IMG/VR virus record: IMGVR_UViG_3300025869_000033
Location: 1-44,847 of that record
Source of the DNA: a virus
Reading direction: 5' to 3' (one strand)
DNA length: 44,847 bases
Positions 1-44,847 of the stretch are shown here, in pieces. Under the pieces are notes generated by a model, which was given only the letters and a program-made list of their open reading frames with translations, searched no databases and was not told the origin of the DNA. How positions within the stretch are numbered: position 1 is the stretch's first letter; each line of letters opens with the position of its first letter. Both the position numbers and the translations under genes were made by a program.

Positions 1-106
1 CCATAAGTCAATGGGTAGTAGACAGTCTGCTTACTGGCGTTAACACGTAACCGTTACGTATACGTTACGTATCCGTGCCACTAAGTGAAGCCCAAACAGA
101 TGTTTT

Positions 107-38817: not shown

Positions 38818-39384
38818 TTAGAAGTCATCCTCTGTTTCAGTTTCAGTAGGCGTTACATTCGGCTCACTAGCCTTGAACCCTTCAGTCTTACCAAAGAGTG
38901 CTGCAACATTTTCTGCAGACATATCACCGGTATCTACACCAGCTGCTGTATTGAGAGACACCAGTTGTACACCAACCAATTTAAGGCTTGTGCCATACGT
39001 AACCCCATCACGGAGAATATATGGCTTCTGATAGAACGCAAGCTTAACACGACTGCCAGCATACATAGGTGTATTGTCATCAGAAATAATTGTCCCTTCA
39101 GTATCGACAACAGGTGGACGAGATTCTTCATTCCAAGAGAACTTTACTTTATATTGTCCTTCAGTGACTTCTTCCCAAGGTTCAGGCTTAAGGGTAGAAC
39201 GCTTAGGATTCTTTAGTTTAGACTCAGCCCACTTAATGGACTCAACTCTATCATCTTCTAGTGCATCAACCATTGATTGATCAACTAGAGCAGCAAGTGA
39301 ATAACCAAATTTGCTTGGTTTCAGTACAGCTTGATATCCTTCAAGGACAACAGGTTGTGCAGTTTTGTGAATTGTACGTGGCAT
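38818..39384 (-). CDS. Single-stranded DNA-binding protein (gp2.5-like)
   Basis: A 188-residue OB-fold-like protein in the gene order RNAP-SSB-gp3. The C-terminal tail ETETEDDF is acidic with a terminal Phe, exactly the T7 gp2.5 feature that contacts polymerase and helicase. The body has the conserved ESIKWAESKLKNPKRS and LKLVGVQLVSLN. The start overlaps the RNAP stop (39384). Confidence 0.9.
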   Translation of the reverse strand: MPRTIHKTAQPVVLEGYQAVLKPSKFGYSLAALVDQSMVDALEDDRVESIKWAESKLKNPKRSTLKPEPWEEVTEGQYKVKFSWNEESRPPVVDTEGTIISDDNTPMYAGSRVKLAFYQKPYILRDGVTYGTSLKLVGVQLVSLNTAAGVDTGDMSAENVAALFGKTEGFKASEPNVTPTETETEDDF

Positions 39385-41723
39385 TAGCAGAAAAAATAAG
39401 TGGAATCAATTACGGAGCTAGGTTCTAGATCTCCAATAATCGGTGGGTCAGTCTCCGCGCCTATCTGGTCAGCGAAGTCTTGCAAGTAATTGTGTTCGGC
39501 AAAGAGGTGCATATATGTCTCTCGTACAATTGCACTGAGAGAAGACATGTCGGTAGCACGACACAATACAGAATCATGAATAAGAGCGATCGGTGCATTG
39601 AAAGCCAATGCGCTGAAGTGAAGCAAGGAAGCATCGAGTGAATGTATTAAGTTTGGTGCTGTTGCGTTCTTGTGATGTTGTTTGTCAACCTTGTCACTAT
39701 CTTGTGTAGCAACGGTTAACTTACAACGACCAAGCAACTGCAATTCTAATTGAATTGTTTCTTTTTTCATGAGCTTTTGAGTGACAACAAAACCTGATGG
39801 TGTAGACCATGTTAGTTCTGTTTTACCCAAGTCAATTGCTTTAGCAACCTCCTCTTCAATCCAAGTCATGACAGCCATGGGACCAGGTACGACCTCATCC
39901 ATAGCATTTCTAACAGCGATGACAGTTTTTGTCAAGTCATCTTTATCAATCTCAATACCTTTTTCAAGTAATGCGTCTTTGATATATCCACGATTAGAGA
40001 AAGGTTTGGCATTGTAAGGAACAGTCATTACGACACGTTTGACTACCTTTCTATCCATATGATTACGAATAGAACTAGGGCAGAAAGGAATAGCAGTTTT
40101 AGCTACGACAGCATAAGCATCCTGTGGTTTATCAGACGGTAATACGTTAACTAAACTAGCAGTATTCTTATCTTTAGCAAGACCTGCTAATATCTGTAAC
40201 CCGCTACAAGTAGCATCTGTAGCTATAGGCAAGCTTGTAAAATGACGATCACACTTAAGCACACAATGATAATACTGATCACATGCTGCAAGGAATTGCC
40301 ATGGCTCATCTGCTGCCTCCCATTCGTGAATGTGTAAGATAGGATCACTAGCGACACAAGTTATAAGATGAGTATTATTCTTTACCCAATCTAATCTATC
40401 TTGCATAGTAGCTTTATCTAGACCATAAGTAGTAGCTACTTGAAATGCTAACCAGTCTTCAGCTTCAGGAGTCATGTAAGCTGATTCAGCAAAAGACAAT
40501 AAACTTTTTCCAAAGTCTGTATCTTGTGGTGTTAAGAATGCAGGAATTGGGTAAGCTCTACCTCTATAATCAAAAGACCAAGGAATAAAGAACTTATCTT
40601 TACTCTTAAATCTTTGTACAGCTTCCATTGTCATTCTTGTTCTACATGACTTCTTAAACTCTTGAGCTTGTAGATTGTAAACTTCAGCAGCTTGTCTATT
40701 ATAATTATGACGAGCTTCTTTATTAGTTTCTATATCTACAGGTTTAGGAGGTAAGTCATGATGAATAATAGGGAGAAACTTACCGACAGCTCGTTCCAAT
40801 CTATCTAGTTCTTCCGCTACACCCACAGTAAAGGGGTTTAGACGGTAAGCAACCTTCTGAATTCGGTTCAAGAACTCAATAGGTCTCTCTCCCTGTATAC
40901 ATGTGGGGTTACCGCGACGCACCATATCATGACCACGCATTACCTCATTTAATATGTAACCGCCACATTTTTCATGTGTCCAGTCATTAGGTTCAATGAG
41001 CATTGGCCATGCAAGTGGGCTGAATAACTCAGCATCACGCATTACTGCGTCTTTGATCTCAAGAAATTCTGGAGTCGGTACAACATAGTGGACACGTTTG
41101 CGTCCTTCTTGTTGCATGTCTTTTGTGAACCACCCGCTGCTTTGCATGATGCAGTCAAGTAACCAACCTCCAAGTTTAATGCGATTAGCTCTGCCCCATG
41201 TGTCCCATTGTTTGACTTCATAGCGATTCATTAAAGTACGGATCACAACTATTTTTTGTTGTGTACCAATTGAACGGTGCCAATAGTTTTCTTTTAATAC
41301 ATGTAGTAAGCCTGGTGCATGTTTTTCGTAGTGACGCATCTGGCATTCTTGTTCTACAGCAAGACCGATAGCATCACACACATTTACTGTTTGATTACTT
41401 TTGTCTTTATATGAAAAGACTTTATCAAACGTTAGTTTAACAGCTAATGCAGCAGCAGCAAGAGGTTCAACATCAGCAAGATATTGTTGTATTTCTTTGA
41501 ATGCTTTACCAGCTTGACCTTTAGTTAGTCTAGCTGTAGTGTATTCAATACGTGCAACCACAAGAGGCAACAAGGTATCGATAGAAGCAGCTCCGTATAC
41601 AGTAGCAGACGCATACGATTTACTTTCTAAGTCGTAGGTGTTCTTATGTAATCGCTTGAGTCCTTGTGAAATAGCATCACGCTCAAGCTGGATCTGTTCG
41701 TCTATCTGTGCTGGTGTCGGCAA
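39384..41723 (-). CDS. Phage single-subunit RNA polymerase (gp1-like)
   Basis: A 779-residue T7-type RNA polymerase that transcribes middle and late genes. FDYRGRAYP (384-392) is the DxxGR region; motif A ATDATCSGLQ (Asp503); motif B has Arg558, Lys562 and Tyr570, with T7 spacing; motif C LIHDS (Asp717). It is shorter than T7's 883, as in marine cyanophages. The start is TTG at 41723, with GGAGGA 5 bases before it; no ATG fits. Its leader lies in the 47-residue gene upstream and shares a 22-base repeat with another small gene. Confidence 0.97.
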   Translation of the reverse strand: MPTPAQIDEQIQLERDAISQGLKRLHKNTYDLESKSYASATVYGAASIDTLLPLVVARIEYTTARLTKGQAGKAFKEIQQYLADVEPLAAAALAVKLTFDKVFSYKDKSNQTVNVCDAIGLAVEQECQMRHYEKHAPGLLHVLKENYWHRSIGTQQKIVVIRTLMNRYEVKQWDTWGRANRIKLGGWLLDCIMQSSGWFTKDMQQEGRKRVHYVVPTPEFLEIKDAVMRDAELFSPLAWPMLIEPNDWTHEKCGGYILNEVMRGHDMVRRGNPTCIQGERPIEFLNRIQKVAYRLNPFTVGVAEELDRLERAVGKFLPIIHHDLPPKPVDIETNKEARHNYNRQAAEVYNLQAQEFKKSCRTRMTMEAVQRFKSKDKFFIPWSFDYRGRAYPIPAFLTPQDTDFGKSLLSFAESAYMTPEAEDWLAFQVATTYGLDKATMQDRLDWVKNNTHLITCVASDPILHIHEWEAADEPWQFLAACDQYYHCVLKCDRHFTSLPIATDATCSGLQILAGLAKDKNTASLVNVLPSDKPQDAYAVVAKTAIPFCPSSIRNHMDRKVVKRVVMTVPYNAKPFSNRGYIKDALLEKGIEIDKDDLTKTVIAVRNAMDEVVPGPMAVMTWIEEEVAKAIDLGKTELTWSTPSGFVVTQKLMKKETIQLELQLLGRCKLTVATQDSDKVDKQHHKNATAPNLIHSLDASLLHFSALAFNAPIALIHDSVLCRATDMSSLSAIVRETYMHLFAEHNYLQDFADQIGAETDPPIIGDLEPSSVIDSTYFFC

Positions 41724-42808: not shown

Positions 42809-43144
42809 CTAAAAGTTACGATTGAAGAAATAGTATTCGCAATCATGATAGATTGCAAAGTAATCACATTGCATTGATTGATGCCATACCATTTCCCAAT
42901 CGATTGCAGTCTGCAAGAATACTGGCATCGCATCGATTGCCTCACTGTAGCACTCACATAGTAAGTCCTCACAGAATGTAGCTTCGTCACGATAACACCC
43001 ACTGTAGGCATCATCTAGCTGCTCTTCAGACTCAATACCATAGCCCTCTAATTCTTTGATGATGGTGTCAACTTTAGCAATGTTGTCGATGTCAAACAAC
43101 TCGCTTATGCGTTGTTGCATATCAGTCAAAGTAGCAGTAGTCAT
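42809..43144 (-). CDS. ArdA-like antirestriction protein
   Basis: A 111-residue acidic protein from ATG 43144 (MTTATLTDMQQRISELFDID); a frame to 43177 exists, but 43144 matches the start context of its neighbours. The section EEQLDDAYSGCYRDEATFCE, EDLLCECYSEAIDAMP, IDWEMVWHQSMQCDYF and EYYFFN follows the C-terminal ArdA pattern (Y-x-G-x-Y ... DF ... IDxE ... GYYVF). ArdA proteins mimic bent B-DNA and block type I restriction. Unusually, it has five Cys. Family call by pattern, moderately sure. Confidence 0.6.
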   Translation of the reverse strand: MTTATLTDMQQRISELFDIDNIAKVDTIIKELEGYGIESEEQLDDAYSGCYRDEATFCEDLLCECYSEAIDAMPVFLQTAIDWEMVWHQSMQCDYFAIYHDCEYYFFNRNF

Positions 43145-43181: not shown

Positions 43182-43409
43182 TCAGCCGACGACAGTAGTC
43201 AGATTGCCTTTGCAGTATGCATTGACAAACTTACCAAAAGACTGCTCACCCTCACTCAAAAAGACATCAACGATAGCATCGTAAGCAACATTCTCATAAA
43301 GATAAGTCTTAGCATTGTTCTTGAATTGTACCATCACTTGATTAGTAGATGGGTTCAAAAGAATGTTACGAACAGTTGAAGACTCGATGGTGTTAGGCTT
43401 GAAAAACAT
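43182..43409 (-). CDS. KTSC-like small protein 1
   Basis: A 75-residue protein. SSTVRNILLNPSTNQVMVQF, then YLYENVAYDA and the end FGKFVNAYCKG follow the KTSC pattern (S-x-x-x-x-I-x-Y ... V-x-F ... Y-x-Y-x-x-V ... S-x-G-x-F). KTSC domains are small beta proteins, sometimes next to lysyl-tRNA synthetase-like sequences, with no settled function. The leader has no Shine-Dalgarno sequence. A sequence-related neighbour is at 43454-43705. Confidence 0.55.
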   Translation of the reverse strand: MFFKPNTIESSTVRNILLNPSTNQVMVQFKNNAKTYLYENVAYDAIVDVFLSEGEQSFGKFVNAYCKGNLTTVVG

Positions 43410-43453: not shown

Positions 43454-43705
43454 TCAGACAGTAGCAAATGTGTAGACTTTGTTAACGTCAAACACAAGTG
43501 AATGAGTAGCGTTACTGTTCACACAGTTACGGTTGAACCAGAAACCAAGAGACATAGACTTATTGAACTCAAGGTTAAGCAATGCACGACGTGATACATT
43601 ATAATAGGTGTAGAACTTACCATCTTTAAACTGTACATCACACGAGCCGCGAAGTACATCTGTGCGGATGTAACTGATGAATGAAGATGATTGATAGGTA
43701 AGCAT
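43454..43705 (-). CDS. KTSC-like small protein 2
   Basis: An 83-residue protein: SSSFISYIRTDVLRGSCDVQ, FKDGKFYTYYNVSRRALLNL, NKSMSLGFWFN. Same KTSC-like order as the preceding-coordinate gene (S-x-x-x-x-I ... V-x-F-x-x-G-x-x-Y-x-Y-x-V ... S-x-G-x-x-F-N), so the two probably arose by duplication. No ribosome site. Function unknown; early expression suggests host takeover. Confidence 0.55.
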   Translation of the reverse strand: MLTYQSSSFISYIRTDVLRGSCDVQFKDGKFYTYYNVSRRALLNLEFNKSMSLGFWFNRNCVNSNATHSLVFDVNKVYTFATV

Positions 43706-43776: not shown

Positions 43777-43995
43777 TCAAGAGTAAGCGTACATAAACTC
43801 TGACAAAGGATTCTCATCGTCTGTACCAGTCTCAACAATAAGCTCAGCGTGTGTCATAGCATTGAGATAGTCAAGATGCTCATCTAATGTGAAGTCATCG
43901 TCAGTAGGCTCAACATCATGCATGAGTTGGATGTACTCAGCTTGCAATGCATCGACAAGCTGTTGGTGTGAGTAGTCAGTTGGAAGTGTTTGCAT
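43777..43995 (-). CDS. Very acidic early protein, DNA-mimic candidate
   Basis: A 72-residue protein with 17 Asp/Glu and no Lys or Arg. MQTLPTDYSHQQLVDALQAE is followed by acid-rich helices (DVEPTDDDFTLDEHLDYLN). It starts exactly where mRNA from promoter 44002-44030 is predicted to begin, so the mRNA may be leaderless. T7 gp0.3 (Ocr), also the first early product, is an acidic DNA mimic against restriction enzymes; sequence similarity to it is not visible, only charge, size class and place. Confidence 0.65.
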   Translation of the reverse strand: MQTLPTDYSHQQLVDALQAEYIQLMHDVEPTDDDFTLDEHLDYLNAMTHAELIVETGTDDENPLSEFMYAYS

Positions 43996-44001
43996 GTATT
44001 A

Positions 44002-44030
44002 ATGATAGCAGATGAAGGAGAGGAAGTCAA
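44002..44030 (-). promoter_or_regulatory. Early host-type promoter 1
   Basis: On the minus strand TTGACT (44025-44030), 17 bases, TATCAT (44002-44007). It matches sigma-70 consensus 5/6 and 5/6 with ideal spacing. The predicted start is the A of the ATG at 43995. Bases upstream of -35 (CTGTCCACTACCGC) are shared with promoters 2 and 3. Confidence 0.8.
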
Positions 44031-44158
44031 GCGGTAGTGGACAGCTTAACGATTGGAACAATGCCACAAGAGAAGAGCTGAGCAACATAATGAGAATCGT
44101 TATCACCAATGATGGATGACAGAAGGATGAAGGGAAGGAGCGTGGTGGTTTTGTTCAT
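44027..44158 (-). CDS. Possible 43-residue exported peptide
   Basis: ATG 44158: MNKTTTLLPFILLSSIIGDN, then SHYVAQLFSCGIVPIVK. The N-terminal hydrophobic stretch is signal- or membrane-like. Its ATG is at the predicted first base of mRNA from promoter 2, the same geometry as the 72-residue gene. Its stop codon is inside the -35 of promoter 1. It is real only if leaderless starts are used here. Confidence 0.4.
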   Translation of the reverse strand: MNKTTTLLPFILLSSIIGDNDSHYVAQLFSCGIVPIVKLSTTA

Positions 44159-44164
44159 ACTGTT

Positions 44165-44193
44165 AGTATGGCAGAGATTGGCGGGAAAGTCAA
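44165..44193 (-). promoter_or_regulatory. Early host-type promoter 2
   Basis: TTGACT (44188-44193), 17 bases, CATACT (44165-44170) on the minus strand. The upstream CTGTCCACCATCGC is shared with the other two copies. It begins right after the stop codon of the 56-residue gene. Confidence 0.75.
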
Positions 44194-44207
44194 GCGATGG
44201 TGGACAG

Positions 44208-44378
44208 TTAGTTGAGTGGCTGATAGTACGTGTGTTCTACACTCCCACTGATTTCATGATGCTGAACACCGTTAATCTTACTCGGTTTGTTACGCTTACC
44301 CTTTGGTACTTTGTTACACCATAACAACTCACGCATAGGCTTATCACCTAAAATGAACGTTGTGTCTTTGAGTCGCAT
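44208..44378 (-). CDS. First early gene, small basic protein
   Basis: A 56-residue protein from ATG 44378 (MRLKDTTFILGDKPMRELLW). I choose this start because GGAGAG lies 3-4 bases upstream; the open frame reaches 44456, but that part overlaps promoter 3. The middle is basic (KVPKGKRNKPSKINGVQHHE). It is the first gene transcribed after entry. Function unknown. Confidence 0.6.
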   Translation of the reverse strand: MRLKDTTFILGDKPMRELLWCNKVPKGKRNKPSKINGVQHHEISGSVEHTYYQPLN

Positions 44379-44397
44379 ACTCTCTCCGTTGTGAATG

Positions 44398-44417
44398 CCG
44401 AAGGCGTTCGCCTCCGG
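44398..44417 (-). promoter_or_regulatory. Stable hairpin in first early leader
   Basis: CCGGAGGCG and CGCCTTCGG pair with a very short loop, just after the predicted start of the promoter 3 mRNA and 20 bases ahead of the first ribosome site. A 5' stabilising stem, or an RNase site, is likely. Confidence 0.5.
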
Positions 44418-44427
44418 TGATGTACAT

Positions 44428-44456
44428 AGTATGGCACAGCTCATACCATAAGTCAA
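44428..44456 (-). promoter_or_regulatory. Early host-type promoter 3
   Basis: TTGACT (44451-44456), 17 bases, CATACT (44428-44433) on the minus strand. The -35 lies inside the right terminal repeat, the -10 outside, so the left repeat copy (near 6-11) carries only the -35 half. Predicted start near 44421. Confidence 0.75.
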
Positions 44457-44551
44457 TGGGTAGTAGACAGTCTGCTTACTGGCGTTAACACGTAACCGTT
44501 ACGTATACGTTACGTATCCGTGCCACTAAGTGAAGCCCAAACAGATGTTTT

Positions 44552-44570
44552 GAGAATCATTATCATTATC
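44552..44570 (-). promoter_or_regulatory. Fur-box-like sequence (right repeat)
   Basis: Minus-strand GATAATGATAATGATTCTC matches the 19-base Fur box at 17 positions. It lies about 130 bases upstream of the first early transcription start, in the entering end of the genome. Candidate only. Confidence 0.3.
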
Positions 44571-44612
44571 AATAAATAATATTGATACGTATTCGTATCG
44601 TAAACATTTAAT

Positions 44613-44714
44613 CCGCTCGCGCTACGCGCTCGCTCCGCCACAATGTGATACATAATCATACATTATTGTACAGTACAAATGCGTATTGACGGGGAGCGAG
44701 CGAAGCGAGCGGGG
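44613..44714. repeat. GC-rich inverted repeat in terminal repeat (right)
   Basis: Arms 44613-44636 and 44691-44714 equal those of the left copy, but the loop differs wholly and includes its own hairpin TTGTAC-A-GTACAA (near 44666-44678). Confidence 0.55.
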
Positions 44715-44731
44715 AATGATAAGATATTCTG

Positions 44732-44750
44732 ACCCCCTATGGGGGTTTTT
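44732..44750 (+). terminator. Rho-independent terminator facing + (right repeat)
   Basis: Same CCCCC-TAT-GGGGG stem and five T as at 262-280, in the plus direction, against all genes. Confidence 0.6.
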
Positions 44751-44847
44751 ATCAGCATTACTTATATAAGATAGGCTTCACAAATTTATGTTATTTTTTA
44801 CGAGGTTATAGCTCGCACTCCAAGCCCTCGTTCGTTTCACTCACTCG

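Follow-up and report, generated by a model that had tools for sequence, protein, structure and literature searches.

In phage T7 the host-type promoters A1-A3 form a cluster at the end of the genome that enters the cell first, ahead of small early genes and the gene for the phage RNA polymerase. For the T4-like cyanophages, Doron et al. are said to have described in 2016 (ISME J) a novel regulatory element that controls the early genes of Syn9 and is conserved within the group. The PeSLs (promoter early stem-loops) of T4-like phages are early promoters that form a portable cassette, flanked by small genes that can be exchanged. For S-PM2 and Syn9, early promoters of the sigma-70-like kind have been reported (PMC2984593). 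The three promoters considered here, P1 to P3, lie in a 44,847-nucleotide stretch of viral DNA (IMG/VR record IMGVR_UViG_3300025869_000033), the whole of which we call the window. They bear out the parallel with A1-A3 drawn in a preliminary description of this DNA, as they sit at an end of the genome, ahead of small genes and of the phage RNA polymerase. They differ from A1-A3 in sharing a 12-bp block and an extended -10, in their predicted leaderless starts and in that each stands directly before its own small gene. Like the element of Doron et al., the block is present in Syn9 and in further T4-like cyanophages, here S-RIM2, S-RIM8, S-CAM8 and S-RIM12, and the T4-like half of our finding may already be described in that work; unlike in that T4-like setting, the phage of the window is T7-like and has a strong TTGACT -35. 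The likeness to PeSLs extends to the portable cassette, but P2 and P3 are without a stem-loop and it is the block that is conserved; identity with PeSLs was rejected on the ground that the stem-loop is absent from P2 and P3; a subset of relatives has one. Promoters that depend on a class II activator resemble this arrangement in the site abutting the -35, the non-consensus -10 and the weak or absent -35 of some members, though the -35 in the window matches the consensus at five of six positions and the activator is here putative. A literature search, itself of incomplete coverage, returned no description of the block, of its occurrence among T7-like phages or of the leaderless placement, and no paper with CTGTCCAC plus 'cyanophage'.

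The record is that of a cyanopodovirus, with genes for a T7-like RNA polymerase (39384-41723), psbA, ribonucleotide reductase and thyX. Among isolates, Synechococcus phage S-RIP1 is closest to it, the two RNA polymerases being 86.8% identical. The early end is the right side of the window and is transcribed leftwards; P1-P3 lie between the terminal repeat and the phage RNA polymerase gene, before the small genes. The terminal repeat (1-377 versus 44446-44847) is imperfect, with near-identical flanks and a differing central segment of about 30-55 nt beside GC-rich palindromes. Terminal repeats of the T7 type are expected to be identical, and the differing segment may come from the mixing of strains in the assembly or may be a genuine variable segment. 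The features of the early end, in the order of transcription, and the copy in the other terminal repeat are:

44459..44470, minus strand: P1 upstream block CTGTCTACTACC, an exact pattern match, spanning -49 to -38 relative to the predicted start
44451..44456, minus strand: P1 -35, TTGACT
44428..44433, minus strand: P1 extended -10 (TG C CATACT), after a 17-nt spacer
44421, minus strand: predicted P1 transcription start, the A of ATC, 7 nt past the -10; relatives conserve R in position +1 and T in position +2
44208..44378, minus strand: P1 gene, 56 aa, its ATG at 44378 preceded by a 43-nt leader that contains a hairpin and GGAG
44196..44207, minus strand: P2 upstream block CTGTCCACCATC, a pattern match
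44188..44193, minus strand: P2 -35, TTGACT
44165..44170, minus strand: P2 extended -10 (TG C CATACT)
44027..44158, minus strand: P2 gene, 43 aa, its ATG on the predicted +1
44033..44044, minus strand: P3 upstream block CTGTCCACTACC, a pattern match, with 93% identity to the window in P3 homologues
44025..44030, minus strand: P3 -35, TTGACT
44002..44007, minus strand: P3 extended -10 (TG C TATCAT)
43777..43995, minus strand: P3 gene, 72 aa, phrog_734 (unknown function), ATG at the predicted +1
43454..43705, minus strand: downstream early gene, KTSC-like
43182..43409, minus strand: downstream early gene, KTSC-like
42809..43144, minus strand: downstream early gene, weakly ArdA-like (antirestriction; Pfam PF07275)
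5..25, minus strand: fourth block with -35, the copy of P1 in the other terminal repeat; the contig end falls inside the spacer

The sequence CTGTCYACYAYCNNTTGACTT is found on the minus strand at 44450-44470 (P1), 44187-44207 (P2) and 44024-44044 (P3), the three places where it had first been noticed, and also at 5-25, an exact copy that had then been missed. These four copies compare with a mean of 0.07 in shuffles of the window, with up to 3 mismatches allowed. At all three promoters TTGACT is followed after exactly 17 nt, within the 16-18 nt of sigma-70-type spacing, by a -10 hexamer (CATACT, CATACT and TATCAT for P1, P2 and P3), and TG directly precedes the -10, making it an extended one. 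The earlier claims of this spacing and of an ATG 6 nt past the -10 at two of the three promoters, P2 (44158) and P3 (43995), both hold. A repeated sequence of about 21 bp in a phage that encodes a T7-like polymerase (39384-41723) could also be a promoter for that enzyme. However, the block is confined, in the window, to the early end and its terminal-repeat copy, never comes without a bacterial -10 at 17 nt and is also used by T4-like contigs (those with gp23) that have no detectable T7-like polymerase; we regard such a promoter as extremely improbable and rejected it on the last two counts.

To search other genomes we used a pattern made of the block and the -35 with the -10 left unspecified, so that the -10 is an independent observation. 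The pattern matches 103 IMG/VR stretches, and its reversed form matches one. The gap between block and -35 is fixed at 2 nt: with a 1-nt gap there is one IMG/VR match, and with a 3-nt gap there are 13, 12 of them without a -10. In every one of the 47 non-redundant copies a -10-like hexamer follows after exactly 17 nt; its second base is A in 46/47 and its last base T in 47/47. Nine contigs from cellular genomes also match, and eight of these have no -10; that the -10 is present in the viral copies and absent from the chance cellular matches is a strong internal control. The ninth (L113, PACT01000003.1) has two full elements and, though assigned to a Crocinitomicaceae genome, resembles a cyanopodovirus fragment misbinned there. 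No cyanobacterial genome is among the cellular matches to the pattern in the exact form searched, and an origin of the exact element from a host genome was rejected, as none of the nine contigs is cyanobacterial.

For a view of conservation that does not depend on the block, we used protein sequence to retrieve ten loci that have a relative of the P3 gene, with the window as the reference for identity. The 58 nt ahead of the block show 29% identity; the figure rises to 93% within the block itself, with 90% for the -35 and 91% for the extended -10, and the conservation upstream of the -35 that had been remarked on before is thus real and covers 12 bases. The block is present at nine of the ten loci, in two of these with one change; at the tenth (L293) the promoter is lost and the P3 gene stands behind a reading frame similar to the P2 gene. 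Homology ends at the block and the genes upstream are swapped, a pattern expected if conservation came mainly from recombination, with the promoter acting as a mobile, PeSL-like cassette that supplies homology for the swapping of small genes. The occurrence of the promoter in different phage families and the stems of up to 10-11 bp that some relatives form across the -35 and spacer fit that account too. Yet the spacers diverge while the block, the -10 and positions +1/+2 stay fixed, and neither P2 nor P3 has a stem-loop, so that we think recombination quite unlikely as the main cause. In the relatives L004, L008, L012, L017, L038 and L079 the -35 and spacer form a stem of 9-11 bp, and the promoter there overlaps a possible terminator-like hairpin. 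The whole P2 promoter is 85-87% identical to intergenic DNA of S-CAM8 and S-RIM12.

A sequence model of the element finds S-RIP1, MedDCM-OCT-S04-C24, S-CAM8, Syn9, S-RIM2, S-RIM8 and S-BM3, some of the weaker hits spanning part of the model only. The same search finds no element in 19 other records, including S-B28, S-CBP1, P-SSP7, Syn5, S-TIP37, S-RIP2, P60, P-SSM2, P-HM1 and S-PM2; P-SSM4 is also negative with the model, yet there too TGTCCACT precedes -10-like sequences by similar distances. A BLAST search with the consensus promoter matched 115 phage records, all of them cyanophages. Among 35 contigs longer than 30 kb, six have a T7-like polymerase and nine have gp23, the T4 capsid protein, with none having both, and the element therefore crosses phage families, being carried by T7-like phages of the S-RIP1 clade and by T4-like Synechococcus phages (S-RIM2, S-RIM8, S-RIM12, S-CAM8 and Syn9). 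The expectation that the block would recur in related cyanopodoviruses thus held for the S-RIP1 clade and failed for most other cyanopodovirus clades tested, while T4-like phages proved to have it as well. S-B28 and S-CBP1 have TTGACA promoters without the block, and since they and most other clades do without it, the block is not needed for early transcription generally. In Syn9 the element (L125:44788-44840) overlaps the start codon given for gp61 in the annotation (44804), and that start is therefore probably misplaced.

The T4-like relatives also separate the block from the -35. Their -35 reads TTGCAA or TTGATT, or is replaced by CCCCAA, CTAGCA, CCCCGT or ACCCAA, and the copies without the usual -35 keep the block, the TGCCATACT-like extended -10 and the start region. 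When the search was repeated with no requirement for a -35, TTG-type hexamers were found in about 31 of 40 copies, and some members of this relaxed set are probably chance matches. Because the block persists in T4-like phages where the -35 is weak or gone, we take it to be a separate promoter element, spanning -49 to -38 relative to a start 7 nt past the -10. Since promoters with an extended -10 can function in the absence of a -35, the missing -35s are not proof of activation.

Judged from sequence, the geometry of the block would suit a proximal contact of the polymerase as well as a site for a class II activator, and of these we infer the activator. Direct reading by the host RNA polymerase itself, through sigma region 4 or the alpha C-terminal domains and with no extra factor, is consistent with the fixed gap to the -35 and with the interval from -49 to -38, which is the place of a proximal alpha site. 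The block is, however, not A/T-rich as known UP elements are, and the exact arrangement is found in no cyanobacterial genome; on balance such reading seems rather unlikely. An operator, where a phage or host repressor would sit beside the -35 for late shut-off or for the exclusion of a second infection, would account for a block that abuts the -35 at a fixed position and that several early promoters of one genome carry. Against this, the block is kept where the -35 has been lost, for which an activator makes more sense, and is common to phages with few genes in common; no repressor gene shared by them came to light in the course of the other searches, and we consider a repressor site unlikely.

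The position of the start codons bears on where transcription would begin. In 26 of 75 copies an ATG lies exactly 6 nt past the -10, and all 26 open reading frames of at least 37 codons; in the remaining members ATGs are mostly 18-30 nt past the -10, with almost none at 7-17. Where there is no ATG at +1, T is found at +2 in 39 of 49 copies (background 29%), and 38 of these 49 have GT or AT at +1/+2. As T at +2 is kept with or without a start codon, +1 would be the initiation site, with the ATG fitted into it. In P3, codons 2-24 are under purifying selection (pN/pS 0.28) and no further ATG comes before codon 25, which argues that translation begins at the first ATG; one P3 homologue (L294) has an in-frame insertion of 7 codons. 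Together these observations support the predicted leaderless starts at 44158 (P2) and 43995 (P3).

P1 has a different layout. Its predicted leader of 43 nt folds at -14.3 kcal/mol (z -2.57) and ends GGAGAGAGT-ATG. The hairpin, at 44398-44417, has 8 bp and a GAAC loop and lies four bases from the predicted 5' end; in the counterpart leader of S-RIP1 a different hairpin looks possible by eye. An ATG that touches the P1 -10 was rejected as the start codon, since it lies upstream of the predicted transcription start. The genes are tightly packed, the TAA of the P1 gene adjoining the P2 block and the TGA of the P2 gene falling inside the P3 -35. The products of the P1 and P2 genes have no match in Pfam, PHROGs or NCBIfam. 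Further downstream, the weakly ArdA-like gene is one that we take to parallel T7 Ocr. Its protein scores 24.4 bits with PF07275, under the cut-off of 27, and 10 of 13 members of its family match; a fold search with the predicted structure (mean pLDDT 63) gave no match in the PDB.

We think it probable that P1-P3 are early promoters for the host sigma-70 polymerase assisted by an activator that binds the block, with leaderless transcripts from P2 and P3. Unmodified host RNA polymerase carrying a sigma-70-type factor would read them as the left genome end enters the cell. Each would act as a composite of the 12-bp block (-49 to -38), the TTGACT -35, the 17-bp spacer and the extended -10, and the block would be recognised by a protein, most likely an activator that contacts the polymerase just upstream of the -35 in the manner of class II. 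Initiation would fall 7 nt past the -10, at the A of the ATG in P2 and P3, giving leaderless mRNAs, and P1 would yield the 43-nt leader with its ribosome site. The products may be small takeover proteins, and read-through would reach the phage RNA polymerase gene. The putative activator is probably encoded by the host, because phages that share few genes use the block, though a host regulator is mildly disfavoured by the finding of the full pattern, in the exact form sought, in no cyanobacterial genome. That one DNA-binding factor, most plausibly a host activator, serves marine cyanophages of the T7-like and the T4-like kind alike, acting at the 12-bp site to start early transcription, including at promoters without a usable -35 and at leaderless genes, is a proposal that we put forward tentatively.

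Two unrelated and abundant lineages of marine viruses appear to take over Synechococcus by way of one common promoter element, and the factor that reads the block would be a testable target of that takeover. The element can serve as a marker of early genes with unknown function, and the ATGs lying exactly on the predicted +1 offer a clean way to study how leaderless messages are translated in picocyanobacteria.
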